Below, piece after piece: positions 34,235-51,381 of a DNA stretch of 64,000 nucleotides. Positions within the stretch are counted from its first letter, which is position 1. Each line of letters opens with the position of its first letter. The notes below the pieces were generated by a model. It was not told where the DNA came from. It saw only the letters and a program-made list of their open reading frames with translations, and did no database searches. This stretch comes from Deltaproteobacteria bacterium (GTDB lineage: Bacteria > Bdellovibrionota > Bdellovibrionia > Bdellovibrionales > Bdellovibrionaceae). The translations under genes and the position numbers were made by a program. The stretch is from positions 248,001-312,000 of the forward strand of contig JAFLCC010000002.1 of assembly GCA_017302835.1 (NCBI GenBank), in the 5' to 3' direction.

Positions 34235-35068
34235 TTAGCCAATTAGTTTAAGAGCTAATTGATTAGTTTGATTTGCTTGAGAAAGAGTTGCTGTACCTGC
34301 TTGTAAGAGAATGTTATTTCTAACCATCTCTGATGAAGCTTGAGCAACATCGGTATCTCTGATTCGACTATTAGCAGCACTCATGTTTTCATGAGCAACT
34401 CCTAAATTGTCAACAGTCGATGTCAATCTATTCTGTAAGGCTCCCAAATTGGCTCTGTAGCCATTTACAAGTTCCTGGGCAGAATCTAAAGACATCAATG
34501 CACTTTGAGCTCCTTCTTTGGACGTATAGTCTAATCCACTTAATCCCAAGGCATCTAAAGTAGCTACATTTTCTGATGCATTAAATGAGATTCTGTCTTC
34601 TTCAGCATTGTTAAAAATACCAACTTGAAAATCGAAAGTTGGTGTGGATCCATCAAGAAGTTTAGTTTTACCCCAAGTAGTCACTGAAGCAATCCTTTGG
34701 ACTTCCGATTTCAACTGATCTACCTCTTTATTTAGAAATCCTCTCTCTACTGAGCCAACAGTGTCAGACGCTGACTGGATGCCTAGTTCTCTTAATCTAA
34801 CAATGACGTTACCAATTTCGTTTAAACCACCTTCAGCAGTTTGAACCATTGAAATACCATCATTCGCATTTCTTTGTGCTTGCGATGTAGATCTGATACT
34901 CGCCTTTAATCCTTCGCTGATAGCCAAACCAGCAGCATCGTCTGCAGCTATGTTGATTCGACTACCAGAGGCTAGTTGCCCCATGGATTTTCCTATTGAT
35001 CGTTGGCTACCCACTAAATTTCTTTGTGCATTGATAGCCGCCAAGTTCGTTGTTACTCTCATACCCAT
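34235..35068 (-). CDS. fliC: Flagellin
   Basis: A 277-residue flagellin, a compact type with only the conserved D0/D1 parts and a short middle. The N-terminus 'VTTNLAAINAQRNLVGSQRSI' and 'LASGSRINIAADDAAGLAISEGL' are the standard D0/D1 helices. The C-terminus contains 'RIRDTDVAQASSEMVRNNILLQ' and ends 'QLALKLIG'. It is exported by the flagellar type III system without a cleaved signal. GGAGG lies before the ATG. A strong terminator follows and a 445-base leader region precedes it, so it is transcribed alone. No other flagellar gene is in the window, so it may be one of several flagellins. Confidence 0.97.
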   Translation of the reverse strand: MGMRVTTNLAAINAQRNLVGSQRSIGKSMGQLASGSRINIAADDAAGLAISEGLKASIRSTSQAQRNANDGISMVQTAEGGLNEIGNVIVRLRELGIQSASDTVGSVERGFLNKEVDQLKSEVQRIASVTTWGKTKLLDGSTPTFDFQVGIFNNAEEDRISFNASENVATLDALGLSGLDYTSKEGAQSALMSLDSAQELVNGYRANLGALQNRLTSTVDNLGVAHENMSAANSRIRDTDVAQASSEMVRNNILLQAGTATLSQANQTNQLALKLIG

Positions 35069-35513
35069 AAATTAATCCTCCGTTAAATTAAATTCTTTCA
35101 TATACCTCCTTGTTGTTAATTTTCTCCTCAATCTTTTGAGGCCGCATTCCTTGCGAATTAATAAATATTTTGGCCTATTACTATTTTTGAAAATTATTTG
35201 AACATTCTATTGTTCTTTAGTATCTTCCTTGAAGGCCTCCTTTCTTTAAGGTTGAAAAGTGTGACTTCACTTTTCGGTTCTTCCTGAATCCCAGTTATTG
35301 CTTCACATCTTAAATCGTTGCTTACAAATAACAGTTCGGGAGCAGTGACATATTCTTGACAGGACATAAGGTAAGAAAAAGCAATCAGAAATCAAATTCG
35401 GTCTTTAGAACGAGGAAAAAAAATCCACGTAGAGGAAAAATATATATAGGCGAGTTCTCCAACGAGCTCGTGTTAAGTAAATAATTTGAGGTGGAGGATA
35501 TGTGTAGATGAGT
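35069..35513. other. 445-base non-coding region upstream of flagellin
   Basis: No gene is seen. It must hold the flagellin promoter on the minus strand. I found no convincing sigma-28 or sigma-54 consensus. One hairpin is clear: GAAAAGTG (35254-35261) with CACTTTTC (35268-35275), loop of 6. A second short palindromic patch, around 'gagttctccaacgagctcgtg', is near 35454-35474. The length leaves room for a long structured leader. Confidence 0.6.
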
Positions 35514-36146
35514 TTATGTAACAGCGAGAGTATATTCTTTGAGAATTCGATGGGCTGGTTCATAGGAGCAGCCCAAAATTTTCGCTATCTGATAAGGAGT
35601 TTTAATTCCTACATCAATCGCAGTTATAATATCAGCTCTCCACGAAGCGCCAAAAATAAGACGATTACGATACTGTGGATTTTTTCTAACCAGTCGTTCA
35701 GGTGTTTGTGAGTCTGAAGCACGTATCCTGATAGTTCCGTTTGGTATTAAAAATCCATTTTTTTTAAAATTAGGTTCTTCTCCTTTTAAAATCATCGAAC
35801 TTAATGCCAGTTCAGTATTGACTAAAGCCAGAGGACCTTTTTGTTTTTTTATCAGTCTCTTCCATTGATGAAAGCCCATATTAAATGCACAAATCGCTAC
35901 AGCAACAAGCCATGGGGAATTTTTCTTTTTTTGAAGCTTCATCAATTTTTCAATAATGACGTAGTCTCCATGAACAGATACCCAACTGCATAGCAATGAA
36001 AATAGGCTACTATCATGAGGAATTTCTAAAGTGGCATCATGCAAAGTATTTTCAATATCGACCCATTGTGGATCTTTTATTTTTTGAACGCCAGCTAGCT
36101 GAACACCAATGTAAATCAGCTTTTGGTCAAGAGATAGATTACTCAT
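35514..36146 (-). CDS. HTH protein paired with a nucleotidyltransferase (possible antitoxin)
   Basis: A 210-residue protein whose start overlaps the end of the nucleotidyltransferase gene by 8 bases. The first 150 residues are helical with no motif I recognise. The C-terminal 45 residues look like a winged helix-turn-helix: 'RLIFGASWRADIITAI' followed by 'KTPYQIAKILGCSYEPAHRIL', in which the last segment is a recognition-helix pattern. Similar HTH partners sit next to minimal nucleotidyltransferases in toxin-antitoxin-like pairs such as AbiE. There, however, the HTH is N-terminal and its gene comes first. It probably binds the palindrome upstream of the pair. Function as antitoxin is inference. 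Confidence 0.65.
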   Translation of the reverse strand: MSNLSLDQKLIYIGVQLAGVQKIKDPQWVDIENTLHDATLEIPHDSSLFSLLCSWVSVHGDYVIIEKLMKLQKKKNSPWLVAVAICAFNMGFHQWKRLIKKQKGPLALVNTELALSSMILKGEEPNFKKNGFLIPNGTIRIRASDSQTPERLVRKNPQYRNRLIFGASWRADIITAIDVGIKTPYQIAKILGCSYEPAHRILKEYTLAVT

Positions 36147-36666
36147 AACCCAAAGCCTTTCCTAAGATCGCGAAGGCAGTCTCCACATGGCTAGGCCACT
36201 TTGGGTTGGAATCTCGTTCTTTGACCCAATTGATGGCAGTTTTCAGTTCATCAACTGTAGGTTTTAAATTTCGAAGATCCTCAAAGTCCGGCGTTGTTCG
36301 GTCACAATATGCAAATAGTTTGGATTTAAGCAGATCGTCTCTCCCTAAAACTTGTAGAAAAAGAGCTCGGCCATGATACAGAGGCTGTACTCGGTTCCTC
36401 CAGCCTTTAGGAAGATCTGTTTTTAGGGATTGGGGGCCGTTATTCAACCAACTGATATCAAGTGCGAAATCTAGCCTTTTCGTCGCGAACTCCTTAGATG
36501 CGATTTTAATTTTTTCTGGAATTTCAGGATCAAGACAATCCACGTCTCTTGTTTTGCGAGAACTGATATCCAGAATATTAAGCGCAGCTCCACCAATAAT
36601 AACAGCTGCAAAATTGAGATTTTGGCTTTCTAAATATTTATCAAACTCAATAATGACATCTTTCAT
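36139..36666 (-). CDS. Nucleotidyltransferase-fold protein (DUF6036/AbiEii-like, possible toxin)
   Basis: A 175-residue protein. 'VIIGGAALNIL' followed by 'RKTRDVDCLD' is the minimal nucleotidyltransferase active site: the GG loop, then the D-x-D pair near residues 41-43. 'KRLDFALDISW' could supply the third acidic residue. The lower part, 'VLGRDDLLKSKLFAYCDR' and 'DFEDLRNLKPT', matches the 'R..DL...Kl.a..dR...D..Dl' pattern of DUF6036/AbiEii-type proteins. Relatives act as nucleotidyltransferase toxins or as tRNA/protein modifiers. It is the first gene of a two-gene unit. No ribosome-binding site precedes the ATG; the promoter lies so close that the message may be leaderless. Confidence 0.78.
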   Translation of the reverse strand: MKDVIIEFDKYLESQNLNFAAVIIGGAALNILDISSRKTRDVDCLDPEIPEKIKIASKEFATKRLDFALDISWLNNGPQSLKTDLPKGWRNRVQPLYHGRALFLQVLGRDDLLKSKLFAYCDRTTPDFEDLRNLKPTVDELKTAINWVKERDSNPKWPSHVETAFAILGKALGYE

Positions 36667-36671
36667 CAGTC

Positions 36672-36702
36672 ATATTGTACCATACAATATATAAAGAATC
36701 AA
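36672..36702 (-). promoter_or_regulatory. Promoter with palindromic operator for the nucleotidyltransferase/HTH pair
   Basis: On the minus strand, a -35 TTGATT (36697-36702), a 17-base spacer and a -10 TACAAT (36674-36679) point at the ATG only 8 bases downstream. A perfect 8-bp inverted repeat with 3-base spacer, ATATTGTA/TACAATAT (36672-36690), covers the -10 and part of the spacer. A protein bound there would block the promoter. The short gap to the ATG leaves no room for a Shine-Dalgarno site. Confidence 0.7.
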
Positions 36703-36802
36703 AAAAAACAGTATTATCAATACTAACCATTTGGTTTTATTTAGTTTTTAATAGTTAGTGACGGTTATTGCTTAACTTTTCAAATCTCTACAGTGAAAAA
36801 CT

Positions 36803-36839
36803 TAAAGTAATACTTTATATTAAAGTCAATTTAAATTGA
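36803..36839. repeat. Cluster of short AT-rich palindromes
   Basis: Three overlapping inverted repeats follow one another: AAAGTA-a-TACTTT, ACTTTA-tat-TAAAGT (36812-36826) and the perfect 14-mer TCAATTTAAATTGA (36826-36839). They abut the DUF4097 scar. They could be an operator, a recombination site or the remains of a promoter; no gene starts directly from them. Nothing else is seen between 36703 and 36802. Confidence 0.6.
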
Positions 36840-36873
36840 AGGTTCTGGCGACATGAAAATTAAATCTTACTAA
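36835..36873 (+). pseudogene. Last 12 codons of a lost DUF4097-type gene
   Basis: Reading + from 36835 gives I-E-G-S-G-D-M-K-I-K-S-Y-stop. This matches the end of the intact DUF4097 gene 2 kb away (38210-38932), which closes K-T-G-S-G-D-L-N-I-K-S-Y-stop, in 9 of 12 positions. The DNA is also alike (ggctctggcgat.tgaa.attaaatctta.taa). A stop lies just upstream in frame, so nothing functional remains. This is the tail of a second gene copy whose front was removed, probably when the neighbouring pair was inserted or by recombination. Confidence 0.65.
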
Positions 36874-36905
36874 AGATCCCAAGATTTGGGAGGAATGATA
36901 CCAGA

Positions 36906-37148
36906 TCAATCAATTTCATGAAAACGACAAAAGGCTATTTTTCCGCTTAGCTCGTAGTCATGTATTTGCTGTGCCTTGAGATGGTGTGAAATAATATATC
37001 CTATAGTGCAAGCTTCGTCAGAAAGTTCATCTTTTCTTTTAAAGTGGGAACAATCTTCACAAGACCATCGGTGATCGAATTTTAAATAATCGCTAGGATT
37101 GACATGATCTTTTTTTATGGAGGGGGTTAATCGTTTGGGTGTTTTCAT
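36906..37148 (-). CDS. Small four-cysteine protein
   Basis: An 80-residue soluble protein. Four cysteines are arranged as 'CEDCSHF', then 'EACTIGY', then 'AFCRFHEID', that is C-x2-C-x(12)-C-x(27)-C. This is suitable for a zinc ion or an iron-sulfur cluster; several histidines (SHF, SHH, FHE) could add ligands. The N-terminus is basic (MKTPKRLTPSIKKDH). I do not know a named family. A weak AGG lies upstream of the ATG. The clean C-terminus on a cysteine motif argues that it is a real gene, although it is short and stands alone. Confidence 0.6.
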   Translation of the reverse strand: MKTPKRLTPSIKKDHVNPSDYLKFDHRWSCEDCSHFKRKDELSDEACTIGYIISHHLKAQQIHDYELSGKIAFCRFHEID

Positions 37149-37183
37149 TAAGTAAACCTACTTCTTTATATTAATTTAACGGC

Positions 37184-38020
37184 TCAAAATGGTTTGGTTG
37201 GAGTTACTTTGGGCACGAAAAGAACTCCATTAGCCTGCTCAGCGAAAATAGTACTATTAATATTTACTCCATTGAACTGAAAGTCATGTGGTGTTTTTAA
37301 TTCCAATGGAAGCCCTCCAAGCATTGGCACTAAAACTGGCTTATCTGGACTGGCTTTTAGAAATTTTGCGTTAAGAGATTCATTGTTTAAATCGATGGAG
37401 CATTCCATTTGTGGACATTCGGGGCCGGGACCTCGTGAGCCGCCACCATATAGCATCCAAATTCCGAAAACTTGCAGGGGTGGCTGAGTCGCCGTCCGCG
37501 TGCTATTCAACTGACGAATTTTTCGCCAAAAAGCCTTATTGCCCTCGATCCATTGAAGCTTGCCTTTTTTTATCTCATCGCTCTGAGCGGTCCCAAGCAA
37601 ACCTTTTGGGAGGTCTCTTTGTGTGATGACTTCTGACAAGTTTCCGAATAGTGCTACGGATTTGAGAATTTCTTCATTACCCGTCATTAAGTATTTATTG
37701 ATACGACGGGCATCACTTCGGCCCATTTCTATAGCTTGGGTGTGATAACCTTTTGAGACATATCTTTTAATGAGCTGATATTGATATTGAAGTTTTTCTG
37801 TTATGTAATGATCGGGCTCGCCTAAAAACAAAAGTCTCTTCGTTACTATCATTTTATCAATTGAATTAAGGGCTGTTGAAGTTGAAAGGTCCTCAAGATG
37901 ATCAAAGTAAATTCCATTTTTTTGAATCCAAGGATTAAATTCAGGAGAAATGGCAAAGCTAGTGTTCGTATTCGAAATTGAAATGATAAATACGGATACT
38001 GCAAATGCCTTCCATCCCAT
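37184..38020 (-). CDS. Exported erythromycin-esterase-like protein, short
   Basis: A 278-residue protein when started at ATG 38020, placed directly before the signal peptide 'AFAVSVFIISISNTNTSFA'. A longer ORF begins at 38104. The segment 'LLFLGEPDHYITEKLQYQYQLIKRYVSKGYHTQAIEMG', with 'RSDARRINKYLMTGNEE' after it, matches in pattern the N-terminal part of the erythromycin esterase/EreA-like fold: GE..H...E, then a long helix, then 'E....A..in.Y+.tG'. That fold normally spans about 400 residues, so the second half is reduced or different. The family includes hydrolases and many uncharacterised members. Export makes an antibiotic-resistance role unlikely. Confidence in the family is moderate. 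Confidence 0.55.
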   Translation of the reverse strand: MGWKAFAVSVFIISISNTNTSFAISPEFNPWIQKNGIYFDHLEDLSTSTALNSIDKMIVTKRLLFLGEPDHYITEKLQYQYQLIKRYVSKGYHTQAIEMGRSDARRINKYLMTGNEEILKSVALFGNLSEVITQRDLPKGLLGTAQSDEIKKGKLQWIEGNKAFWRKIRQLNSTRTATQPPLQVFGIWMLYGGGSRGPGPECPQMECSIDLNNESLNAKFLKASPDKPVLVPMLGGLPLELKTPHDFQFNGVNINSTIFAEQANGVLFVPKVTPTKPF

Positions 38021-38209
38021 AATCCAATAACAGTATATTTCCACGGTTTCGATATCCACAACTTTCTTTCGTACTTGAAAATATTTTAATGTTGCGTAGA
38101 ACATATTACAAATAAAGACGCTTAAGTGATTGATATTTTTTTAATCGTCGTTTATGAGGAGTACGAAATAAGATTAATCTTTTTCAAAATAGTCAAAAGA
38201 GGTAGATAA

Positions 38210-38932
38210 ATGAATAAAGTTGTTTTGATTCTAATTTTTTTAATTGGGTGTTCTGCTTTTGCTACTTCCGAGTCCAAAGAGTTTGAAGTAAAGGACTTAA
38301 CTGGCGTTTCAGTTGAGAATACTTCTGGAAAAGTTTTTATTACCGAAACAGATGGTTCAAAGGCCTATGTTGTTGCTACTAAAAATAAATTTGGTGATAA
38401 ATGTAAAATGACGGTGGAGCGGTCTGCAAATAAATTAGTTATAAAACTTGAAAAGACAAGTAGCTTTTTCTCAACTGAAGAGTGCAATGTTGATTTTCAA
38501 GTAAAAGTACCTAAGAATGTGGATCTGGACATAGCCTTGGGATCAGGTAATGTTACAGTTAAGGGCATTCATGGTGATTTGGCATTTAAAATCGGCAGCG
38601 GTGATATCTTAGCTGATGGAACATTTAGAAAAATTAGCGGCTTTTCAGGAAGTGGAAAAATCTCACTTAGAGGCTTGATTGGTGGTGGAGAGCTTAAAAC
38701 TGGTAGCGGGGACATGGATCTGACCTATGCTGCAGTTTCTCTAAATGGTGAACTTGATTTAAAAACAGGAAGCGGTCGGACTTCAATTTTGTTTCCCAAA
38801 GGAGCAAAGATTAAAACAAATTTTAAAGCTGGTAGTGGCAAACTCAGCAATGAGCTGGGTGATACCCCTGAGGCTTCATTTAAAGTTTCAATGAAAACTG
38901 GCTCTGGCGATCTGAATATTAAATCTTATTAA
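38210..38932 (+). CDS. Exported DUF4097-type repeat protein
   Basis: A 240-residue protein with signal peptide 'VVLILIFLIGCSAFA' and SD GAGGT. A cysteine is present in the signal ('LIGCSAFATS'), so it may be a lipoprotein. The mature chain is a beta-helix of the DUF4097 (putative adhesin) type. Seven 'GSG' turns recur about every 18-22 residues (ALGSGNV, KIGSGDI, FSGSGKI, KTGSGDM, KTGSGRT, KAGSGKL, KTGSGDL). Members are envelope-associated; their molecular role is not settled. It lies upstream of the histidine kinase with 110 bases between. A remnant of a paralogue is found at 36835-36873. Confidence 0.82.
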   Translation: MNKVVLILIFLIGCSAFATSESKEFEVKDLTGVSVENTSGKVFITETDGSKAYVVATKNKFGDKCKMTVERSANKLVIKLEKTSSFFSTEECNVDFQVKVPKNVDLDIALGSGNVTVKGIHGDLAFKIGSGDILADGTFRKISGFSGSGKISLRGLIGGGELKTGSGDMDLTYAAVSLNGELDLKTGSGRTSILFPKGAKIKTNFKAGSGKLSNELGDTPEASFKVSMKTGSGDLNIKSY

Positions 38933-39042
38933 GAATTTAATCTTTCGTTCGTTCAGTAGGCTTAATCGGCAGTTCGGTTCTTTCGCGAGAAGTTACATAA
39001 AAAATAAACCAAGGAGCACCTTCTTTCTAAGGGGAAAAAATA

Positions 39043-40173
39043 ATGGAACGACTCAAAAGATTTTTTGTATTTTCAAAGATCTGCAGTTTCAAAGATCGCC
39101 TCAATAACTATCTTAGGGTCGTTTTCATTTGGTGTCCCATCGTGACCGTCTTGTTTATTTTTGGTTTCGGAAGCATCGACAATTTGGCCCGTAGATTTTC
39201 AATTTCAATGATCATTTCTACAACAGTGGCAACCTCTTGTTTTTTTGGTTCTTGGCTGACTAGCGATCTTTACAATAGCTATCGACGATGGCGTGGCCAA
39301 GAAACCAAAAAAGTTAGTTTCCTATGGGGAGTTTTTTTAGCTTATCCTTTTCTTCTTCCTGGTCTCTATTTTGGATTTATCTTCGCAGGAGCGTTTGGCA
39401 CAGCCATTGGTCACACCTGGGACCCACCTAGCTTTCAAGACTATAGCTCCGGTGTGATTTTTGGAATAATGGTTTCTGGCCTATTCTCACTTTTTGAGGT
39501 CGTACGGGAATCAAAGCAGGCAAAGAAAGCTGCCGAACTAAAATTTCGCACCCTCGAAAATGAAAATCTCAAAGCACAGATTTCTGCTTTGACAGCTCAA
39601 ATGAATCCACATCTTCTTTTTAACTCACTCAACACTATCGCATCGACGATCACGACGGATCCAAAGTCTGCCGAAGAAATGGTTGTCCAGCTATCCGAAC
39701 TCTATCGCGGGATATTGAAGTCGGCTAAGGATGAGGTGCACTCTCTTGAGAATGAACTCTGGCTCTGCCGATCCTATTTAGATATTGAACAAAAGCGCTT
39801 CGGCCCAAGAGTTGACTACAAGATTCTCGTTGCTGAGACCATCGATCCAAAAAAAATGAAAATCCCCGTTTTACTTATACAGCCCCTTGTCGAAAATGCA
39901 GTGAAGCATGGTATCTACCCTAAACGCGACGGAGGAGTTGTTTCAATTGATGTAAGAAAAACTGATTCTCATTTTGTAATCAGCGTGATGGATAATGGAA
40001 TTGGCATTCAATTTGAGAAATCCACAAAGGGGACAGGCTCAGGCCTTTCGAATTGCGAATCCCGAGTAAAGCTGAAGTATGGAGCTGAATCCAAATTTAT
40101 TTTTTCAAGAAATGATAAAAATGAAACAACAGCGTGCATCCATATTCCATTGAAAGGAGCGGCCTTTGGCTAG
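39043..40173 (+). CDS. LytS/YehU-type sensor histidine kinase
   Basis: A 376-residue membrane kinase of the His_kinase (PF06580) class. About four membrane segments lie at residues 25-45, 55-72, 92-115 and 130-150. A short coiled linker follows. Then comes the phosphoacceptor motif 'LKAQISALTAQMNPHLLFNSLNTIAS', with His near residue 193. The ATPase domain has 'LLIQPLVENAVKHGI' (N box), 'ISVMDNGIGI' (G1) and 'GTGSGLSNCESRVKLKYG' (G2). Such kinases pair with LytTR response regulators, normally the next gene. Here the next gene is only a stub (40166-40225), so the kinase has lost its local partner. AAGGGGA precedes the start. Confidence 0.93.
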   Translation: MERLKRFFVFSKICSFKDRLNNYLRVVFIWCPIVTVLFIFGFGSIDNLARRFSISMIISTTVATSCFFGSWLTSDLYNSYRRWRGQETKKVSFLWGVFLAYPFLLPGLYFGFIFAGAFGTAIGHTWDPPSFQDYSSGVIFGIMVSGLFSLFEVVRESKQAKKAAELKFRTLENENLKAQISALTAQMNPHLLFNSLNTIASTITTDPKSAEEMVVQLSELYRGILKSAKDEVHSLENELWLCRSYLDIEQKRFGPRVDYKILVAETIDPKKMKIPVLLIQPLVENAVKHGIYPKRDGGVVSIDVRKTDSHFVISVMDNGIGIQFEKSTKGTGSGLSNCESRVKLKYGAESKFIFSRNDKNETTACIHIPLKGAAFG

Positions 40174-40225
40174 AACCTTTATTGTTGATGATGAAATTCC
40201 TGCCATTGATCGACTGAGCCAGTAG
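40166..40225 (+). pseudogene. Response-regulator gene cut after 19 codons
   Basis: Directly behind the kinase, with AAAGGAG (40153-40159) as ribosome-binding site, a TTG start gives M-A-R-T-F-I-V-D-D-E-I-P-A-I-D-R-L-S-Q then TAG. This is the exact opening of a LytTR-family response regulator ('.+.LIVDDE..A.+RL...'), including the paired Asp residues of the receiver domain. It overlaps the kinase stop by 8 bases, as is normal for such pairs. No continuation is found in any frame of the next 40 bases before the convergent gene. The rest of the regulator (about 220 residues) has been deleted. Confidence 0.75.
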
Positions 40226-40263
40226 TTTCTTTTTGAGATTAATTTATTCAAATTTATTGGTTT

Positions 40264-40794
40264 TTAATTATTGCATTCTGATATATAAATTTTTTCTGGA
40301 TTCAATTTTTTAGACTCGAGCCAAAATTTGATCTGTGATTTAACGAGATCTGGGTATTCACCACATTTAAAATTTTTAGAGGCTAGGAAAAGTTGTGGTG
40401 CTTTATCAAATTTCCCCTCGTAAATAAAATGTATTATTGCCATCACAGAAGTCTTCCCTTTGGAATCTGCAAAATAAAATCCTTTTTCATCACAACTGTG
40501 TTGCCTACAAGCGGTCAAAACGATTGAATTTTCATTGGGAGAAATACTCTCATCAGGTGGGCCTCCTAAAACGGTTAATAGGGCATCAGACAAACTACTT
40601 TTCTTATGTCTTTTTTCAAAGCCGAAATCTTCCCTAAAGGTAGGCAACTCTGCTTTCAAAAAATTTAACTTCTTTAGTTCTCTAATTACCGAATTAGTAC
40701 TTTTTCCTTTTGAAGACTTTACCCACTCCCAGCTGATTTGGGCGCTTGATAGACTTTGAAAAAGAATCAAAATAGTTCCAAAATAATATTTCAT
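40264..40794 (-). CDS. Uncharacterised exported protein
   Basis: A 176-residue protein with signal peptide 'FGTILILFQSLSSA'. Four cysteines lie in the second half (ACRQHSC, FKCGEY, SECNN), likely two disulfides. It has no known motif; the central 'GFYFADSKGKTSVMAIIHFIYEGKF' looks like a beta-hairpin plus helix. It is the gene that now borders the truncated response regulator, convergently, 38 bases away. The 282 bases between it and the next gene (40795-41076) hold only one 8-bp hairpin, TTGAAATT/AATTTCAA (40864-40885). Confidence 0.65.
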   Translation of the reverse strand: MKYYFGTILILFQSLSSAQISWEWVKSSKGKSTNSVIRELKKLNFLKAELPTFREDFGFEKRHKKSSLSDALLTVLGGPPDESISPNENSIVLTACRQHSCDEKGFYFADSKGKTSVMAIIHFIYEGKFDKAPQLFLASKNFKCGEYPDLVKSQIKFWLESKKLNPEKIYISECNN

Positions 40795-41076
40795 GATTTA
40801 ATTGAACCAGGATGTAAAGGCTCGATCAACAAACAAATACTTAAATGGCGGAAAGACTTTCGATTGAAATTTTTTTGAATTTCAAAGCTTCTTTCTTCCA
40901 TTCTTTAAACTCAGTAAGAAATCTTTTTGTTAATCAACTTAACTTCGACCTCGATAAATTGCTATGAAGCCTTCAAATGAAAAACAAAATAGCTATTGAG
41001 AACTGCTGGCAAAGTTATAAATTTTTATTTCAGATTTTCACCATTGCGAAAAATAATTCCTTTTTATAGAGCCCCG

Positions 41077-43296
41077 CTAATCCACAAGACTATTGTCACT
41101 TTCAAAGTCTTCATCTCCTATTTTAGGATTGTTAATGCATGTTCCTCTATGCCAACAACGTTCCGGCCCGCAATCACATCCACCAGTCATAGCGGCCCCG
41201 CAAGCAGACGGAAAAACTTGATCGAAACAATTATCAACGCAGGTACTTCCAAACACCACATACCTTCCTCCAACGCGCTCACATTCGTTTTTTCTATCTG
41301 GCAAGATCGATGCCCAATCTGCGACAGGCCATCGGCAGTCTTGGCCATCTGAAATTCCTCCGGTGTTTACACAGGTTCTAAAATCCAAGGGTATTCGAAC
41401 TCTATTTGCAGCAACAATCAAAGGATTCTTTTCGAGATTTAACAAGACTTGCTGAATATATTCAGCATTCATATTTTGATCAACGATAAGAAATATTTTA
41501 CTATGTTCGCGTTTTGATTTGAAAATCTTCAGCTTATTGTTGGTTAAGACAGAATTGACATCTTTCACCCTTGCATCTGACTTAAAAATGACCCTAAAAA
41601 GGGAAATATGTTTCTTTGGGTCGAGATTTTGAGATGCCACAGGGCGCTCACGGAAATTCACAGTTGACTGCTGCCACAAATGAGTTTCAGGACCAGGCAA
41701 CATGCCGTTGGGATATTTAAAATGGGAAGAATCAACACACTGATGATCCCTGCAATAGAGATTTTCGAGGCGCTCAGGGTGAGTCCAATAAGAAAGTCGA
41801 TCCTTACTGTATCCGACTTTAGATAAGCGGGAAAAAAGTTGTTCTTCATTTTTCCGATTGAGGAAAAAGGCTCTTTTGCCAAAAAAAATGATGTTTCTTC
41901 CGCAGTCTGAGGTCTTTTGGCAAGAATTGTTCTTTGATAACTTCAAAGCCTCTGCCATTAAAAATTCTTCCGATCCAGCCGCAAACTCGAGTTGAATATT
42001 TTCATTGGCATCTCTGAGGTGCTCACAGTTCGAAGTCAAGGGCAAACTCATTTCCGTAAAGTCCCTCAAGGGATTTTCTGTATATAGTAAAATTGGAAAA
42101 ATATCTATTTCATTTTTAAGTTTCGAGTATGTTTGATCTAGATCTCCTTCAAATATTTTTCTGACTTTAAACTCTCTTTTAAAAGCATAGGATCCTTTCA
42201 AATACTTCTTCTTGAGTTCAGCAATAAATCTAATGCAATTTCTTTCATTAGCAAGGTTCTGATCCCGAAGAGCTCTTACTTCTGCAATACTATAGTTTCT
42301 CGCAGAAACGCGAAAATGAGTCTCATCCTTCCACTTCACTCTTACAAAATGCGCAATGGAAGTTCGGATGACCTCTTTTTCCAAGAAATCGGCCAGAACT
42401 AGATTCCCTTTGCTTTCAAAAACCACAGTTCTTCCTGATGGTGATAGACTCAGAAATGAGCTTGGTGGCCCCATTGCTTCAACACACTTATGAATCAACT
42501 CATTAAGATGTAACTGGCAGATTTTCGTACGATCCGAACCCACCTTCGTTTGCCAAACAAAAAAGTCTTCTGAACTTGCAAACTTTGTTGTTTTATCCAA
42601 ATTTTGGATCGACCCTTTAGGCTTTCCATTTTTTTCGAAGAGAAATAGAGTTTTCTTTGAACTCTGATTTAAAGGTTCAACCTGAAAATAATATCGAAGA
42701 CCAAATAATTGAGCTCTTTCTTTATCATAGGGAATAAAAGGTTTTTTGGAGTTGAAGGGCACGTACGACTCCATACTGGTCTGCGACTGATTAAAAGCAC
42801 CACTCACTAAAGGTTGTTTTTGAACTTCTCTAAAGACGAGCTTGGCTAAAGCGAGCTTGGGATCTGCTTTGGCTGGTGAAGGTGCAGATTCATTTCTGGG
42901 TTGGACCGTTCCCGAACCTTCATTGAGGATTTTGAATTGTTCCATTCCAGAAATTGTTCCCTGGCCTTCAATCGCATATACTTTCCCTGTAACAGGTGAA
43001 TGAACACCCCTAAATTCCACTCTGCAGGAGGGCATTTTATCGTCAATATCAACTTCAAATAGTCCTTCAATCGATTTTGGAATCCTGTAATCAAGGTCGA
43101 ATAGATCAGTCGGACATTCATTGGTCGCAATCCAAGTTGCCATCGATTGTCGAAAAATTTCACGCAAAGTCACTTGGACCTGTTTTTCGATAACATCAAC
43201 TGAAAGAGGTTGAGATGGCACCATCTGGGAAAAAGCGGGATGTATCAAAAAGAACTGAGCACATTGAAAAAAAAGAGCATATAATAATCGATTCAT
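41077..43296 (-). CDS. Large exported cysteine-rich protein of unknown function
   Basis: A 739-residue protein when started at ATG 43296, placing the signal peptide 'LLYALFFQCAQFFLIHPAFS' at the front. A GTG at 43320 is the alternative. The middle (about residues 170-320) has strands with turns like 'LSLSPSGRTVVFESKGNLVL', suggestive of a beta-propeller blade. The last 110 residues are dense in cysteine ('DNCFDQVFPSACGAAMTGGCDCGPERCWHRGTC' contains eight). The 'CDCGPERCWHRGTC' stretch looks like a small disulfide knot. I recognise no family. It diverges from the 985-residue surface protein and may share its control region, so both may act at the cell surface. Confidence 0.7.
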   Translation of the reverse strand: MNRLLYALFFQCAQFFLIHPAFSQMVPSQPLSVDVIEKQVQVTLREIFRQSMATWIATNECPTDLFDLDYRIPKSIEGLFEVDIDDKMPSCRVEFRGVHSPVTGKVYAIEGQGTISGMEQFKILNEGSGTVQPRNESAPSPAKADPKLALAKLVFREVQKQPLVSGAFNQSQTSMESYVPFNSKKPFIPYDKERAQLFGLRYYFQVEPLNQSSKKTLFLFEKNGKPKGSIQNLDKTTKFASSEDFFVWQTKVGSDRTKICQLHLNELIHKCVEAMGPPSSFLSLSPSGRTVVFESKGNLVLADFLEKEVIRTSIAHFVRVKWKDETHFRVSARNYSIAEVRALRDQNLANERNCIRFIAELKKKYLKGSYAFKREFKVRKIFEGDLDQTYSKLKNEIDIFPILLYTENPLRDFTEMSLPLTSNCEHLRDANENIQLEFAAGSEEFLMAEALKLSKNNSCQKTSDCGRNIIFFGKRAFFLNRKNEEQLFSRLSKVGYSKDRLSYWTHPERLENLYCRDHQCVDSSHFKYPNGMLPGPETHLWQQSTVNFRERPVASQNLDPKKHISLFRVIFKSDARVKDVNSVLTNNKLKIFKSKREHSKIFLIVDQNMNAEYIQQVLLNLEKNPLIVAANRVRIPLDFRTCVNTGGISDGQDCRWPVADWASILPDRKNECERVGGRYVVFGSTCVDNCFDQVFPSACGAAMTGGCDCGPERCWHRGTCINNPKIGDEDFESDNSLVD

Positions 43297-43636
43297 TTCA
43301 TTTCTCACTCTTTTCCTCACCGCTCCGTCATAGGCGGAGGATCCCTGATCGAAGACTCGAGGGCAATTGCCAAGTTGATTCTATCGAGAGCTTTTGATAC
43401 TCGCAAGCAGATAAAGTATATACCTCTAACACAAATGTAAAAGTTCTGAATGATCCAAGAAACATAAAGAAAGAAAGTTAAATCGATCTGCCGTTTTAGG
43501 TTGAGACACGTAATAAGTTCAACATAAAAATGTAAAAGTTTATCCTGTTGTCATTGTTGGTGATTTCTTAGTCCAAATTGTTGATTTCTCAAATAGATAC
43601 TTTTGTTTAGTCTGAATCAGTCGAAGAAGACTCTGT
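43297..43636. other. Divergent control region with direct repeats
   Basis: No gene is seen in these 340 bases between two divergently transcribed surface-protein genes. A 13-bp exact direct repeat, AAATGTAAAAGTT, occurs at 43433-43445 and 43528-43540 (95 bases apart, the same orientation). A looser pair, ATTGTTGGTGATTTCT (43553-43568) and AATTGTTGATTTCT shortly after, follows. A small hairpin CTCCG/CGGAG lies at 43323-43339 in the leader of the minus-strand gene. These could be sites for one regulator serving both genes. Confidence 0.55.
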
Positions 43637-46594
43637 ATGGACGTAGAACCTGATTACAAACTATTAAAGGTTTCATTTGGTTTGAATTCTTGGTGTTATA
43701 TTCTAATATCATCCATCTTTGTGATATTTATCGGAATTCAAAAAGCCCATGCAACGGGGGCTGGGATTACCTATCATGGCAGGCTCATAGATCCCAATGG
43801 TAATCCCGTTGTGGGAACAAATGTTCAGTTTCGATTGCAGATTAGAACTCCAGGAAATGAAAATTGTTTGATGTATGAGGAAGTCCAAAACAAAGATCTC
43901 TCTATGACAAGTGGAGCCTACGCAGTAACAATTAATGATGGCACGGGGTCTAGATTGGACTCTTCGGGATACACTTTGGATCAAATCTTTGCGAATCGAA
44001 ATTCTTTTACCTTTGCAGGGAGCAGCTGCACCGCGGGAATTACTTATTCTCCTAATACGACGGACAGTCGGAAGATTCAGGTTTTCTTTAATGATGGAAC
44101 CTTTCCCATAGGCCAGTGGGAACCCGTGGCTCCGATGGCAATTAACTTTGTTCCTATGGCCATTGAAAGCATGCAAGTGGGTGGTTACAAGAAAGAGCAA
44201 CTTATAAAGATTGCTGATGGGGTATCGACAACAGGAACAGAACTCAATAGTGCTTCATGGACCGAGCTTCTAGCTTTGATTGGTGGAACCACCACTCAGT
44301 ATGTGAAATCGGGATCGGCTAATTTCACGGCAGCTCCCCAGTGGAATGGAGTTCCTTCGGGAGCCAATGATCTTGTCAACAAAACCTATGTGGACGCACA
44401 GGTAGTGGCAGGTTTACCCAATGTGGGAACTCCAGGGACTTATGCGAAAGTAACGACAGATACAAAGGGCAGAGTGACAACAGGAGCCGCCTTAGTGGAA
44501 GCAGATATCCCGACACTTTCCACTGCGGGAAAAGTCAGCGGCAGCGCTATCAATGCAGGCACCTTGGCCGGAAGCACCGCCATCAATTCCTCTGGAAATC
44601 TTGTGACCACGGGCACAGTTCAAGGAGCCACAGTGAGTGCGACGAATCTGCGAGCCTACAACGGCGCTAATTATGTTCAACTGGCAGCGCCGGCACTAGG
44701 TGCTGGAAATTTGAATTTCATACTACCCTCCACAGATGGAGCTTCCGGTACTTTGATGAAAACCAACGGATCTGGTCAACTCAGTTTTGGAACTTTAAGT
44801 TCATCAGATATCCCTAGCTTGGATGCTGGAAAAATCACGACAGGAACATTGCCTGTGGCTCGAGGTGGAACCGGACTCACGAGTTATGGGAACAACAGTG
44901 TATTGGTTTCGAATGGCACAGGCACTGCGATAAGTTCATTGAATTGCACCATCGGACAAATCATCAAGTTTGATGCCTCTGGCTTTGCAGGGTGTGGTAC
45001 CGATAGCACGGGGGCTGGGTCTCAGTGGACCACGACTGGATCGGATATTTACTATACAACCGGCAAAATGGGTGTGGGAACGGCCACCCCCGGGGCCACG
45101 CTGGATATTACCCAAACTAACGGAGATGTCAGCGCCGGGCCCCTAGGTTATGCACTGAAAGTGATCGGCGGCAGAAATACGAGCGCAGTTTATCCAGCTC
45201 GAGGTGGCGATATATCTTTGGCGGCTGGCATGGGAATTTTTGGCGGAAATGTAAATATTGCCGCAGGGTCGAGTTGGACGACCGGACCTTATAGTACCGG
45301 AGCATCTCTTAATTTGGATGGAGCCTACAATATTGGTCAAGCAGGCTCCGCAACTCTTTTTGGGGGCACTGGTAAAAATGGAGAGCCTGGGGGCTCTGTT
45401 GTCTTGTCGGCTGGGGATGCAACCACTGGCCCTGGCGGGGATGTGCGATTGTCTGGCGGTCCAACCGGCGGTGGGGCATCGGGTGGAAATGTCTATCTCA
45501 ATGGAGGTCTGGGCAGCTGGGCGTCCACTCGCGCAAACGTTATAGTTGCAGATCTCGGGGGCAAAGTCGGTGTCGGCACAGCGGCCCCTGTTGTTAGAAT
45601 GGATGTCAGTGGAACAATCAAAGTCGGTGATGGTGGGGAATCATGTAGCTCCTCAACAAAAGGATCTATCCGTTACAACAATGTCACGAGCGTGCTTGAA
45701 TTCTGTAATGGCACCGGGTGGAATCTCATTCAGGCCGCTGCTTGCAATGACCCAACTCCTGATACGATTTCTTTCACTAATGAGGCCAATGCAACAACAT
45801 CAACCCTCTATATCTCCGATATTCAGCAAGTGACCGGCATAAACTGCTCGGTGCCTGTCACTATCACTGGTCAGGGATCTCCGCAGTATCAAATTTGCAG
45901 TGATGCTTCTTGCACAACAGTGATTCAGGCTTGGACTTCTAGTTCAAGTTCTGTCACCACAGGTCAGTACTTACAGACGAGACTAACTACCGACAACGTA
46001 GGGGGCGCTAGCTTTCAGGCCACTCTAATCATTGGATCCGGAGCCACTGTTTGGACCGTCACTACCGCTGGAGGCGATTGTACGGGCTCACCAAGCATCG
46101 GGACTGTCTGTGCTGATGGCACCATCTATGCGGGGCTTTCACCGGATGGTAACAACAAAATGTTCACAACCCGTTGCGATGCTGGTCAAACCTGGGATGG
46201 ATCAATTTGTATAGGTGCAAGAGCCAGCCTCAGTTGGAATAATGGAACCACAAACAGGCCTGTCACTGGCTATGGTAGTGCCGTCACAGGTAAAACCAAT
46301 TCTGCGGGCTTATATGGTCTGTCCGATACGGGATCACCCTATGAAGGAGCCGCCTACTGTGAAACACTAAACATCGATGGTAAAACTGACTGGTATCTGC
46401 CCGCATTGTCTGAATTAAATATACTGTATTCCAACAAAAATATAATCCGCAACTTTGATACCAGTGGATCTTACTATTGGTCTGCCACAGAATATAGTTC
46501 TGACGGAGTCTATGCTGTTCGTTTCTCTGACGGTAACGTCAGTTATCTCGCCCAAAAGAATCTGTTTAGGTTGACCAGGTGTGTGCGACGTTAG
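43637..46594 (+). CDS. Large surface fibre protein with C-terminal DUF1566 domain
   Basis: A 985-residue exported protein; the hydrophobic segment 'WCYILISSIFVIFIG' lies at residues 20-34, with cleavage near 'AHA'. Residues 42-190 form an N-terminal domain ('GITYHGRLIDPNGNPVVGTNVQF') typical of giant tail-fibre-like proteins of Bdellovibrio relatives. Residues 200-640 are a Gly/Ser/Thr/Ala-rich fibre with phage-fibre phrases ('TGTLPVARGGTGLTSYGNN', 'GVGTATPGATLDI', 'GGNVNIAAGSSW'). After a Cys-bearing beta domain (about 690-800), residues 810-985 are a DUF1566/Lcl C-type-lectin-like domain ('TDWYLPALSELNILYSNK', 'YYWSATEY', 'LTRCVRR'). Base composition is clearly richer in G+C than its neighbours. 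It is probably an adhesin; ligand unknown. Confidence 0.82.
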   Translation: MDVEPDYKLLKVSFGLNSWCYILISSIFVIFIGIQKAHATGAGITYHGRLIDPNGNPVVGTNVQFRLQIRTPGNENCLMYEEVQNKDLSMTSGAYAVTINDGTGSRLDSSGYTLDQIFANRNSFTFAGSSCTAGITYSPNTTDSRKIQVFFNDGTFPIGQWEPVAPMAINFVPMAIESMQVGGYKKEQLIKIADGVSTTGTELNSASWTELLALIGGTTTQYVKSGSANFTAAPQWNGVPSGANDLVNKTYVDAQVVAGLPNVGTPGTYAKVTTDTKGRVTTGAALVEADIPTLSTAGKVSGSAINAGTLAGSTAINSSGNLVTTGTVQGATVSATNLRAYNGANYVQLAAPALGAGNLNFILPSTDGASGTLMKTNGSGQLSFGTLSSSDIPSLDAGKITTGTLPVARGGTGLTSYGNNSVLVSNGTGTAISSLNCTIGQIIKFDASGFAGCGTDSTGAGSQWTTTGSDIYYTTGKMGVGTATPGATLDITQTNGDVSAGPLGYALKVIGGRNTSAVYPARGGDISLAAGMGIFGGNVNIAAGSSWTTGPYSTGASLNLDGAYNIGQAGSATLFGGTGKNGEPGGSVVLSAGDATTGPGGDVRLSGGPTGGGASGGNVYLNGGLGSWASTRANVIVADLGGKVGVGTAAPVVRMDVSGTIKVGDGGESCSSSTKGSIRYNNVTSVLEFCNGTGWNLIQAAACNDPTPDTISFTNEANATTSTLYISDIQQVTGINCSVPVTITGQGSPQYQICSDASCTTVIQAWTSSSSSVTTGQYLQTRLTTDNVGGASFQATLIIGSGATVWTVTTAGGDCTGSPSIGTVCADGTIYAGLSPDGNNKMFTTRCDAGQTWDGSICIGARASLSWNNGTTNRPVTGYGSAVTGKTNSAGLYGLSDTGSPYEGAAYCETLNIDGKTDWYLPALSELNILYSNKNIIRNFDTSGSYYWSATEYSSDGVYAVRFSDGNVSYLAQKNLFRLTRCVRR

Positions 46595-46644
46595 TTTTTC
46601 AAATTTCCGAACACATGTGACGGTCCCCTTCTTGTTATTTGAGT

Positions 46645-46785
46645 CTATGCATCAGTCCAAATAAACTCAGAAAGTTCTGGAAACGCTATCCTTAAATTTT
46701 CAATTTTAGATGCGTTTACCCTAGGAGGGCGAGAGAGTTCCTTGGAGCCTTGACATGTCCTTAAAGAACACCAATAATTTTCATA
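46645..46785 (-). pseudogene. Possible gene remnant, 46 codons, no start
   Basis: The minus strand is open for 46 codons from just after the TAA at 46786-46788 to a TAG at 46645-46647. Its translation is protein-like ('SRPPRVNASKIENLRIAFPELSEF') rather than low-complexity, yet it has no ATG, GTG or TTG at its front. I do not know the family. It is best read as the tail of a lost gene, lying downstream of the broken membrane gene. The frame continues past the TAG with more ordinary codons (TQITRRGPSHVF), so a point mutation is also possible. Confidence 0.3.
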
Positions 46786-47090
46786 TTAAAGGGAGGTCAT
46801 CCTGCGACAGTTTACCTTTGTTCTCCTGGTTTTTTCGTTTCCTTTGTTAGCCCTTTCTGAAACCAACAAAGCGGCATAAATAGACAAACAAATTAAATGA
46901 AAATAAGCTAGAGCAGACTGGTCACCAAATTTGTCTTTAAAACTAATAAACACCAAATCCAAATTTTCCAGAAGGAGTTTATTTCGCTCAGATTCATTCT
47001 CATATTTTGCACGTCGAGTACATGTAGAACAAAACCGATGAAATAAAAAAGCGCAATTAATTTCAAAAAATTAGACTTTATTTTACTCAT
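46786..47090 (-). pseudogene. Frameshifted small membrane protein
   Basis: From ATG 47090, 'KIKSNFLKLIALFYFIGFVLH' is a clear first membrane helix, with 'FWKIWIWCLLVLK' as a second. The frame then ends at TAG 46908. A shift of frame near 46938 lets the reading go on as 'DKFGDQSALAYFHLICLSIYAALLVSE' (third helix) to TAA 46786. The good membrane pattern on both sides of the shift suggests one gene broken by a frameshift, possibly with a deletion. The family is not known to me. Nothing else is seen in the 144 bases from 47091 to the cupin gene. Confidence 0.45.
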
Positions 47091-47238
47091 AATTCATGTA
47101 TTTGACCCTGTTAAAAATAAATTGTCATATTTTTTGAATTGCCGACAGAAGTGTGGCACAAACATCTTGGCGGTGGGCAAGTTGGGCGAATCCATCTGTT
47201 ACCGAGTTTTAAGAAATGCTCATCGAGGGGGTTATTTA

Positions 47239-47595
47239 ATGTCAGCTCCAATTTCTCTGAAGCAGATCAGCGATTCGATCTTAGAAAAGCATAAAAATGT
47301 TCTCGTTTCGCAAGTAAATGATAGTTGTCTCCGCCTTGCCGTCATTGAAGGAATTTTCGACTGGCATCATCATCCAAACTCCGATGAGCTTTTCCTCGTC
47401 CTAGAGGGTTGTCTTCAAATCGATTTTCAAGATCAGAAATCTGTCGAACTTCTCCCGGGAGACGTTTTTACTGTACCTGCAAAAAAGATTCATCGAACAT
47501 TTGCAAAAACTAGAACTGTAAACCTTTGTTTTGAACTCACAAAGGGCGAGACCGTTTTCTTTCAAAATGGAGGTGCTCAGCATGGAATCTGTTAG
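47239..47595 (+). CDS. Small cupin-domain protein
   Basis: A 118-residue single-domain cupin when started at ATG 47239, which has GAGGGGG upstream; an earlier in-frame start at 47122 has no such site. Cupin motif 1 is 'WHHHPNSDELFLVLEG' (H-x-H and Glu metal ligands) and motif 2 is 'LLPGDVFTVPAKKIHR' (second His). A metal ion, probably Mn, Fe or Zn, is expected. Substrate cannot be told; small cupins are enzymes or ligand sensors. It overlaps the next, RidA-like, gene by 14 bases, so the two were an operon. Confidence 0.85.
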   Translation: MSAPISLKQISDSILEKHKNVLVSQVNDSCLRLAVIEGIFDWHHHPNSDELFLVLEGCLQIDFQDQKSVELLPGDVFTVPAKKIHRTFAKTRTVNLCFELTKGETVFFQNGGAQHGIC

Positions 47596-47893
47596 ACATC
47601 CCAATGAGGCCAGTCAGGATAACAATTTCAATTCAGACTTTGAAAAAACTGAGCTAATTAAACCGACGATTGGAAGAACCTTTAGCGGCGCGCCATGGGA
47701 AAAGAAAGTCGGCTACTGTCGAGCCATACGGATGGGTAACACCATTGCCGTTACTGGCACCACGTCTATTACAGATGACGGAAAGGTCTTTGCGGATCAT
47801 CCACCAGCAACCACGATGGTAGAGATCAAAGCTCTGATTGATCCAAGCATGTTGGTTGAGATCGAGGCTGATGCCGTAGTGTTGCAGCCATGA
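47582..47893 (+). pseudogene. RidA/YjgF-like gene with internal deletion
   Basis: A 103-residue reading frame from ATG 47582 (GGAGG upstream). 'SGAPWEKKVGYCRAIRMGNTIAVTGTTS' is the standard RidA-family N-terminus and 'PPATTMVEIKALIDPSMLVEIEADAVV' is the standard C-terminus. The stretch that normally joins them is absent: about 50 residues with the helix 'A.AQ...AL.NIE.AL..AGA...DVV+.+.Y+.D'. The two ends meet at 'DDGKVFADHPPATT'. The frame is kept, so a shortened protein could be made. It lacks a central helix and strand, so a working trimer of the usual kind is unlikely. Confidence 0.7.
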
Positions 47894-47992
47894 ATTTATC
47901 AAACACTTATGTCAAACAGTTTAAAAAAAATGGTATCTATAGTCATTAGAAAAAAGGTGACACCCTTACGAGAATAAAAATAGTCTTAATTT

Positions 47993-48709
47993 ATGGATAA
48001 AAAATACCGTAAAAACATTTTAAAATTTATTTCCCTATTGGTTTTAGGTTTTTCAAGTTTGTCCCTTGGCTACTCGGATCCAGACAAATGCCCTAAAAAA
48101 TTAACCCATTTTGATAATCTTCAGTTTGGAAGAAGTTACCAAGAGGAAATCGCTGAATGCTGGATTTCTATTGATAACATGGATGCCTACAAGACTCTTA
48201 TCTATCGTAGTTACTTAATTACGACAGAAGGTCTATTGATGGTATTTAATTCCTATGGAAAGGGTCCAAATTCGAGCTTTACAGGTGCCAGAATGTTTTA
48301 TTTTCTTCCTAGAGAGGTATTTTTAAACGAAATTAGCCAAAAGAAAAATTTGTTAAGTGTAAGACTCAATAGCAGATTAAACTTACAATTTGAAACAAAA
48401 AAATTGAACTTGGTTAATCAAGAAAATTTTAAAGTAATAACAGATCCTAAGATTAATAGAAAAAACAATGGTGGTGTTGAAATTAAGAAGTACACAGGGG
48501 TGTATCTGGACACAGGGTTTTCTCTTGGTCAAGCTCCAACCACTAATCCAGAAAGGTCTAGTTTTTTTGTGAACCCGCAAGGGCAAAGATGTAGTGTGCT
48601 CAATAAGAAAATTTTTGATTACAAAAATGAGGAAATTTATTTGCAAGGAGATTCTGTTTTAAAAGCGACAGTCCAAAGAGTTTGTCCTGAATTTGTTTGG
48701 GTGGATTAG
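47993..48709 (+). CDS. Uncharacterised exported protein
   Basis: A 238-residue protein with signal peptide 'FISLLVLGFSSLSLGYS' (residues 12-28). The mature part begins 'DPDKCPKKLTHFDNLQFG' and holds four cysteines (DKC, AEC, RCSV, RVC), likely two disulfides. It has mixed beta character ('LITTEGLLMVFNSYG', 'FYFLPREVF'). I recognise no motif. It stands as a single gene ahead of clpB, with 80 bases between. Confidence 0.7.
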   Translation: MDKKYRKNILKFISLLVLGFSSLSLGYSDPDKCPKKLTHFDNLQFGRSYQEEIAECWISIDNMDAYKTLIYRSYLITTEGLLMVFNSYGKGPNSSFTGARMFYFLPREVFLNEISQKKNLLSVRLNSRLNLQFETKKLNLVNQENFKVITDPKINRKNNGGVEIKKYTGVYLDTGFSLGQAPTTNPERSSFFVNPQGQRCSVLNKKIFDYKNEEIYLQGDSVLKATVQRVCPEFVWVD

Positions 48710-48789
48710 TTTTTATTTAGTAGATCAGCTTAAATTTATTTGACAGTCATTATTTTGGACTCAAGTTGAACCATGAGATAGAGGTGTTT

Positions 48790-51381
48790 ATGGCCAGCGA
48801 AATCGAAAAAATGACACAAAAAAGTCAAGAGGCGATGCAAGCAGCTGCTTTAAGGGCTGAAAACAAAAAAAACCCGACGGTGGAACCTGAACATTTGTTG
48901 GCTGAGTTGTTAGTTCAATCGGAGGGTGTTGTCCCCAGAGTTCTTGAAAAAATGGGGATTAATATTCAATCCGTTGCCTATGATTTTCAAAACAGGATTG
49001 ATAAATTTCCCCAGGTCACTGGGGCTGAGCAAAAGTCTTACGCCAGTCAAAGACTCCAAAAAGTTTTCCAAAATGCAGAGATTGAGTGCAAAGCCATGGG
49101 GGATAGTTTTATCTCAACGGAACACTTTTTTTTGGCAGGGATTAAGTTAAATGATTCGGATCTAAATAGTATATTTAAGCGGCACCAAATCAAAATAGAT
49201 GGTTTTTTAAAATCATTGAATGAAATCAGGGGGAATCAAAAAGTGATTGATGATCAACCAGAAAACAAAATGGAAGTTTTAAAAAAATACGCTCGGGATT
49301 TAACAGCTTTAGCCAGTGAAGGCAAATTAGATCCCGTTGTTGGCAGAGATGAAGAAATTAGAAGAGTGGTGCAGGTGCTTTCGCGAAGAACGAAAAATAA
49401 CCCTGTTTTGATTGGCGAACCAGGTGTTGGTAAAACAGCCATCGCTGAGGGTTTGGCACTTCGAATAGTTAAAAAAGATATACCTGAAAATTTAATTGGG
49501 AAGAAACTCATGAGCTTGGACCTCGGAGCTTTGATTGCTGGAGCTAAGTACCGTGGCGAGTTTGAAGATCGGCTCAAGGCAGTTATCAAAGAAGTGACAT
49601 CGAGCGAAGGAAAGATCATTCTTTTTATTGATGAGTTGCACACTCTTGTGGGAGCTGGGAAATCGGAAGGAGCTATGGACGCTGGTCAGCTCTTAAAGCC
49701 AGCGCTGGCTCGGGGCGAGCTCAGATGTATTGGAGCAACGACCCTTGATGAGTACCGTCAGTACATCGAAAAAGATGCAGCCTTAGAGCGAAGGTTTCAA
49801 ACAGTGTTGGTTGATGAGCCTTCGGTAGAAGATGCCATTACCATACTGAGAGGCCTGAAAGAAAAATATGAAGTCCATCACGGAGTCAGGATCACGGATG
49901 GAGCTATAGTCTCGGCTGTTAAGTTGTCCCATCGTTATATCACTTCTCGATTTTTACCGGACAAAGCCATCGATTTGATTGACGAGGCAGCTAGTAAAAT
50001 GAGTATCGAAATAAAATCCGTTCCTGAAGAGATTGATGAGATCGAACGTAAGTTAATGCAACTAAAAATCGAGAAAGAAGCTCTTAAAAAAGAAACTGAG
50101 GCCGGGGCCAGAGACCGCTTGGCCATTATCGAGAATGAGCTTAAAGAATTAAGCGGAAGTAATCAGAAGTTAAGAGAGCAGTGGGAGTTTGAAAAAGGTG
50201 GTATCGAGCAACTAAAAAAACTCAAACAAGACTTTGAAACAACTAAAATTGAAATCGAAAAGGCCCAACGGAGCGGAGATCTGGGTAAGGCTGCCGAGCT
50301 TAAATATGGCAAATTGCCTGAGCTAGAAAAGAAAATTCAACTTTTTGAAGAAAAGGCAAGTGCTAAAACTGTCTCCAAAGAGTCAAGAATGTTGAAAGAA
50401 GAAGTTGGTCCCGAAGATATTGCTGAAATTGTTGCGAGATGGACGGGTATTCCTGTTGCTAAAATGTTAGAAGCTGAAACTCAAAAATTATTAAAAATGG
50501 AATCCAAACTTCAAGAAAGAGTTGTTGGTCAAGATCACGCATTGACCATCGTGGCTGATGCCATTCGTCGGTCGAGGGCAGAGATTTCTGATCCAAATCG
50601 ACCTATTGGTTCGTTTATCTTTTTAGGACCCACAGGCGTTGGAAAAACAGAAACAGTCAAAGCTTTAGCTGAATTTTTGTTTGATAGTGAACAATCGGTT
50701 GTGCGAATTGATATGAGCGAATACATGGAAAAGCATGCAGTATCTCGTTTGGTGGGAGCTCCTCCGGGGTATGTAGGCTATGAAGAGGGTGGCCAGCTTA
50801 CAGAAGCTGTTCGTCGTAAACCCTATAGTGTCGTTCTTTTTGATGAAATTGAAAAAGCCCATCAAGATGTATTTAATATCTTGTTGCAGGTTTTAGATGA
50901 TGGAAGGTTAACCGATGGTCAGGGTCGAACAGTTGATTTTAAAAATACCGTCATGATTATGACTTCAAATATCGGTTCGCAATCTATTATTGATCCAAAG
51001 ATGTCTGAGAGCGAAAAAGAAAAGGAAGTAACTTCGGCTTTAAGGGCTCATTTCAGACCCGAGTTTTTGAATCGAATTGATGAAACCATTATTTTTAATT
51101 CATTAAAACAAGAACAAATTGCTGGAATCGTCAAAGTGCAATTGAAGATTGTCGTCGAAAGATTAAAAAACAAAAAAATCGCCCTCGAGTTTTCTGACTC
51201 AGCTATGAATTTTATTGCCAAAATGGGGTACGATCCTATCTATGGAGCAAGGCCTCTGAAGCGCGTGATTCAGAGCGAGGTCTTAAATCCTCTTTCTAAA
51301 GAAATGATCGCCGGCACCTATAAATCTGGAGATAAGATCAAAGTCGAGTGTAAAGGAAATAAGCTGGTTTTTTCGCATTAG
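48790..51381 (+). CDS. clpB: ClpB disaggregase chaperone
   Basis: An 863-residue AAA+ protein, starting at ATG 48790 with GAGGTG just upstream (a TTG at 48766 is in frame but unlikely). The N-terminal Clp_N repeat domain covers residues 1-145 ('[14 protein letters not shown]'). NBD1 has Walker A 'GEPGVGKT' near 208 and Walker B '[21 protein letters not shown]'. The coiled-coil middle domain lies about 400-525. NBD2 has 'GPTGVGKTE' near 613 and '[11 protein letters not shown]'. The full middle domain marks it as ClpB rather than ClpA/C. With DnaK it recovers aggregated proteins. I saw no CIRCE or clear heat-shock promoter upstream. Confidence 0.97.

Follow-up and report, generated by a model that had tools for sequence, protein, structure and literature searches.

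How a complete sensor histidine kinase comes to stand without its response regulator is a question of history as much as of function: the partner may have been lost in place, or the kinase may have arrived without it. Such a gene lies in the 64,000-nucleotide stretch analysed here and called the window (G000:C2:248001-312000, part of a 3.63-Mb draft genome in 35 contigs), where the initial annotation ascribed its orphan state to deletion of the response regulator. The searches made turned up no paper on this locus. The features on which the argument turns are the following.

37149-48115, no strand: stretch about 10.7 kb longer than the matching place in the genus-mate G003 (blastn against L072), containing the kinase fragment
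38210-38932, plus strand: intact DUF4097 gene (PF13349; toastrack, weakly LiaG-like), left of the fragment
38969-39007, plus strand: 3' remnant, 12 codons plus stop, of the small secreted-protein gene found ahead of the kinase in relatives
39043-40173, plus strand: complete LytS-type sensor histidine kinase, 376 aa, with PF06580 and PF02518 above cut-off
40166-40225, plus strand: 5' remnant (19 codons and stop) of a LytTR response regulator gene, with an 8-nt overlap of the kinase stop
40264-40794, minus strand: convergent ORF of 176 aa, function unassigned and no family match, right of the fragment

A whole kinase between two gene remnants

The kinase matches the Pfam models PF06580 (His_kinase, 84.6 bits against a cut-off of 25.2) and PF02518 (HATPase_c, 42.1 bits against 26.4), a combination by which it is classed among the LytS-type sensor histidine kinases. 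Its phospho-acceptor histidine region, QMNPHLLFN, is common to its clade mates, and the translation also holds LVENAVKHG, DNGIGI and GTGSGL, which we take to be the N-box and the G-box; the kinase does have all its motifs, as first annotated. BtsS/BtsR and LytS/LytR are examples of LytS/LytTR two-component systems, in which a PF06580 kinase is paired with a REC-LytTR regulator. The window shares with these systems the domain order of the kinase, its hydrophobic N-terminal half, the overlap of kinase stop and regulator start and a VDDE motif in what follows; however, where they have a full regulator, the window has just 19 codons of one.

This downstream remnant starts with TTG at 40166, runs through 19 codons (LARTFIVDDEIPAIDRLSQ) and ends at a TAG stop at 40223-40225, in agreement with the coordinates and sequence of the initial annotation. 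Its 8-nt overlap with the kinase stop recurs in the nearest relative, G341, and in G103, and the receiver start motif that includes VDDE sits in the register of the cognate regulators. Residues 2-19, aligned to the G103 regulator in the register of the relatives, score 44 (58.8% identity over 17 residues), and since no more than 2 of the 127,892 positions of the two window strands reach this score, the remnant is not a chance resemblance; with the other four regulators the observed score is attained at 2 to 17 window positions. A frame running on past the stop, which would make the lesion a nonsense mutation and not a breakpoint, was considered and rejected: the continuation, FLFEINLFKFIGF, has a faint likeness to strand two of a receiver domain, yet an equal score is reached by 17% of shuffles and 34% of AT-rich window stretches (mean over five regulators), and the 13 codons past the stop lend no support to continued regulator homology. 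Searching the window by tblastn with four regulators brought up no other piece of this regulator, the one strong match (56737-57234) being a separate receiver protein in a 478-aa frame, and the LytTR DNA-binding domain PF04397 has no match anywhere in the window. With no full-length REC-LytTR regulator adjacent to the kinase, the locus is not a complete LytS/LytTR two-component system.

The gene upstream of the kinase is cut as well. Positions 38969-39007 encode AVRFFREKLHKK*. All 12 residues agree with the C-terminal end of the G341 upstream protein, and 10 of the 12 agree with that of the G103 protein. The stretch scores 62, while 1157 other 110-nt pieces of the window score 25 at most, and the DNA match to G341 starts at 38969. 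Only these last 12 codons of the secreted-protein gene are present at the window. Because both outer genes are cut, the window holds only the inner part of an operon: 12 codons, a whole kinase and 19 codons. Deletion of the regulator is thus too narrow a description, correct for the complete kinase and its cut regulator, and silent on the cut upstream gene and on the surrounding block, which G003 lacks at the corresponding site.

The operon in relatives

The kinase was searched in 59 relatives, 140 genomes of the order, 143 of the class and 368 of the phylum, overlapping sets each of which includes the genome of the window. The closest kinases are those of G341 (65% identity), G103 (53%), G095 (41%), G275 (37%) and G345 (36%), followed by more distant ones. 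Sixteen kinase loci were compared, the window included; weaker hits (L010-L014, L016, L017) and the four loci of the genome_contigs scan (L023-L026), each a short matched segment of 34-42% identity, were left out and not used as evidence. Three loci were not assessable, two of them (L007, L035) running into a contig end and one (L009) having a damaged kinase that lies near a contig end. In 11 of the 13 others a regulator, aligned over at least 200 residues, follows the kinase directly, so that the comparison with relatives proposed in the initial annotation sets apart just two loci with a cut regulator, the window and G341. In G103, G345, G275 and G095 the kinase is preceded by a small secreted-type protein, which in the two of these genomes scanned, G103 and G095, has no Pfam match above cut-off; a match to the upstream protein at E <= 1e-3 is missing in 7 of the 16 loci, among them the window, whose 12-codon remnant is too short for that threshold. 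The arrangement in relatives is a three-gene operon of small secreted protein, LytS-type kinase and LytTR regulator, and the window kinase and both remnants are colinear with this module as it stands in G103, G345 and G275, differing in that the outer genes are remnants. The family is not BtsR, since the orthologous regulator of G103 scores 156.7 bits against the NCBIfam BtsR model, below its cut-off of 246.

The small secreted-type proteins that precede LytS-type kinases are about 150-165 aa long (L034 2681-3133, L035 840-1328, L046 941-1402, L015 997-1443), and most members of one clade carry the motif GGGYCFG.GLC. No Pfam match above cut-off was obtained for the three scanned (L034, L035 and L015); they are perhaps sensory accessory proteins. 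As a separate observation, the kinase frame at L009 (G042:C72, 267-1130) lacks both the phospho-acceptor histidine stretch and its 3' end and is still preceded by a small gene like the upstream gene of the module on contig C13 of the window genome; it is another decaying module, with a kinase of the other kind.

G341, which belongs to another family of the same phylum, pairs with the window in the kinase tree (98/97) and resembles it in its damage. Here too a whole kinase stands between an upstream gene cut at its 5' side, identifiable only from around residue 59 of the G103 protein onwards, and a regulator cut at its 3' side, traceable only as far as about residue 63-74. The locus (L044, on G341:C355) occupies a contig of 3178 bases in a genome rated 75% complete, so the cut state may be partly a matter of assembly; if it is real, the breakpoints differ from those of the window and the events were separate. 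This parallel is the only surprising part of the case.

Insertion of a fragment or deletion in place

The operon piece, at about 38969-40222, sits between two intact convergent genes. To its left, 110 nt upstream of the kinase and on the same strand, lies the DUF4097 gene, whose protein scores 51.9 bits against the LiaG family, below the cut-off of 285; to its right, the protein of 40264-40794 has no Pfam or NCBIfam match and no match in five genus-mates. Three segments of the window (34235-35376, 36910-37148 and 48116-50789) match G003 in blastn at L072 4408-3276, 3170-2944 and 2660-1, and since these matches are colinear the window is about 10.7 kb longer between 37148 and 48116. The G003 row comprises a flagellin gene, an 80-aa gene and homologues of the window genes at 47990 and 48724; G003 is the one genus-mate in which the shorter site was compared, with 1.56 of its approximately 3.8 Mb covered for synteny. 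The kinase is sporadic: at E <= 1e-15 it is missing from all five genus-mates and matches in only 7 of the 140 genomes of the order, its own included, and a looser search adds one weak hit among the genus-mates, in G003 (1.7e-4, 27% identity). Two of three other block genes have no match in the five genus-mates, and the third, the DUF4097 gene, has matches of 21-26% in two of them only.

A second excess over G003, of about 1.4 kb between 35376 and 36910, adjoins the flagellin gene; this stretch (35377-36909) contains a DUF6036 nucleotidyltransferase-like gene (36139-36666) that overlaps a gene of unknown function (35514-36146); the two may form a toxin-antitoxin-like pair. The border at the flagellin gene has the look of an insertion hotspot. 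Within the genome-specific block there is also a 985-aa protein with a C-terminal Lcl_C domain (43637-46594), over which GC content is 0.49-0.52 per kb, the window as a whole lying mostly at 0.33-0.43.

The most probable history, in our judgement, is that a piece of about 1.25 kb of the three-gene operon was inserted between the two convergent genes. The source operon would have its relatives in distant members of the phylum, the insertion site would be the variable block next to the flagellin gene, and the breakpoints would have fallen within both outer genes, leaving the kinase alone whole; the piece would have arrived as a fragment rather than having been trimmed in place, recently and without its cognate output. 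That both remnants adjoin the kinase in the operon order of the relatives supports the insertion of an operon fragment, and because mere scraps of both flanking genes are present, a stray acquired fragment is more probable than a system that lost just its partner. A single insertion of this kind also explains the locus more simply than deletion of the regulator in place. The insertion of the small piece is itself unproven, since the closest intact operon found has 53% identity and a relative with the DUF4097 and 40264 genes as neighbours was not found either. The base composition of the kinase points both ways: its GC3 of 0.40, above the 0.27-0.37 of seven other genes compared, counts for the insertion, and its overall GC of 0.417, unlike the 0.373 of the G341 relative, counts against the insertion of a fragment, as does the undamaged frame, which is also what a kinase under selection would show.

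Neither mobile-element genes nor significant flanking repeats were recognised. The hexamer CAGTAG at 38954 and 40220 was considered as a target-site duplication and rejected as being at chance level, since some 6-mer is common to the two zones in 52% of shuffles. Carriage on a plasmid was likewise rejected: kinase matches in PLSDB (347 records) are all distant, below 60% identity, and the 40264 protein has no match there.

The undamaged frame is also a reason to consider deletions in place, a less likely course of events, by which the operon was at first intact, having either come with the 10.7-kb block or been ancestral, two deletions cut the outer genes, and the kinase was perhaps kept by selection. 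An intact kinase between two cut neighbours would suit such a course, and the whole block is genome-specific and may have arrived as a unit; however, two events would be needed, both of which would have had to stop in a non-coding gap next to an intact gene, and the remnants are so young that an intact frame requires no selection. Compared with G341, the upstream remnant differs at 7 of 36 bases, all synonymous; its roughly 28.7 non-synonymous sites are unchanged, so that neutral drift since the cut would have been at most about 0.10 (95% bound). Set against a kinase pS of 0.74 (pN 0.20) between the window and G341, this makes the cut young relative to the split of the two. At a drift of 1-3%, 61-23% of unselected kinase copies would still be without a stop, in an estimate that leaves out indels, and the intact frame is for this reason weak evidence of function.

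An assembly error, with an operon that is complete in the organism but wrongly joined in this assembly, is most improbable. The genome is indeed a draft in 35 contigs, but the error would take two mis-joins 1.25 kb apart within a 347-kb contig, and neither a second LytTR gene nor a secreted-protein gene of this clade was found elsewhere in the genome, which is rated 99.98% complete.

Possible partners of the kinase

The initial annotation left two fates open to the kinase, signalling to another LytTR protein or loss, and the search for an intact LytTR regulator that it proposed did find one. The single LytTR domain (PF04397) of the genome belongs to an intact regulator on contig C13, which is the best, at 5.8e-36, of 24 receiver-like matches to the G103 regulator at E <= 0.01; the idea that the rest of the cut regulator lies elsewhere in the genome was rejected on the same search, its best match being this intact protein and the only one with PF04397. 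A complete kinase, an intact LytTR regulator and two dozen receiver-like matches leave room for a functional orphan that signals to the C13 regulator or another one, yet this seems improbable. The C13 regulator has its own kinase directly upstream, in a different clade of the kinase tree (99/99), and C13 carries a three-gene module of that other clade, with a different, similarly placed small protein ahead of the kinase that has matches upstream in G042, G183 and G184. The phospho-acceptor region of the window kinase is moreover closer to its clade mates (38-57 of 68 positions) than to the C13 kinase (30 of 68), in a comparison from which L048 and L049, lacking the motif as searched, were dropped.

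Decay is the likelier prospect, and of the two fates loss would be favoured over a working pair with the C13 regulator. A search for sigma-70-like promoters found none upstream of the kinase, whose expression would come at most by read-through from the DUF4097 gene 110 nt upstream. The upstream protein of G103 has no match in the genome of the window at E <= 0.01, a silence without a positive control. Since neither a cognate regulator nor an upstream partner turned up in the genome, nor a sigma-70-like promoter ahead of the gene, the kinase is most probably a bystander without cognate output, on its way to being lost.

The event is of a known kind, a neat instance of gene decay but a rather ordinary one. 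A paper on the two-component gene sets of myxobacteria (PMC4603909) names indels, lateral transfer and pseudogenes, the routes considered here, as ways in which such sets change; it includes one Bdellovibrio genome for comparison and does not treat the window locus. The window would provide a clear example of a sensor kinase that became an orphan because only a fragment of its operon was carried over, and not because its partner was lost in place, and it illustrates that an orphan kinase inspected only downstream is given the wrong history. From the parallel in G341 one might suppose, as a rather speculative extension, that the kinase of this operon has been kept, or moved, alone more than once, as a portable unit working without its own regulator, for instance by plugging into other regulators or drawing phosphate from them. 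If that parallel is real, it becomes testable whether such kinases act without their regulator.
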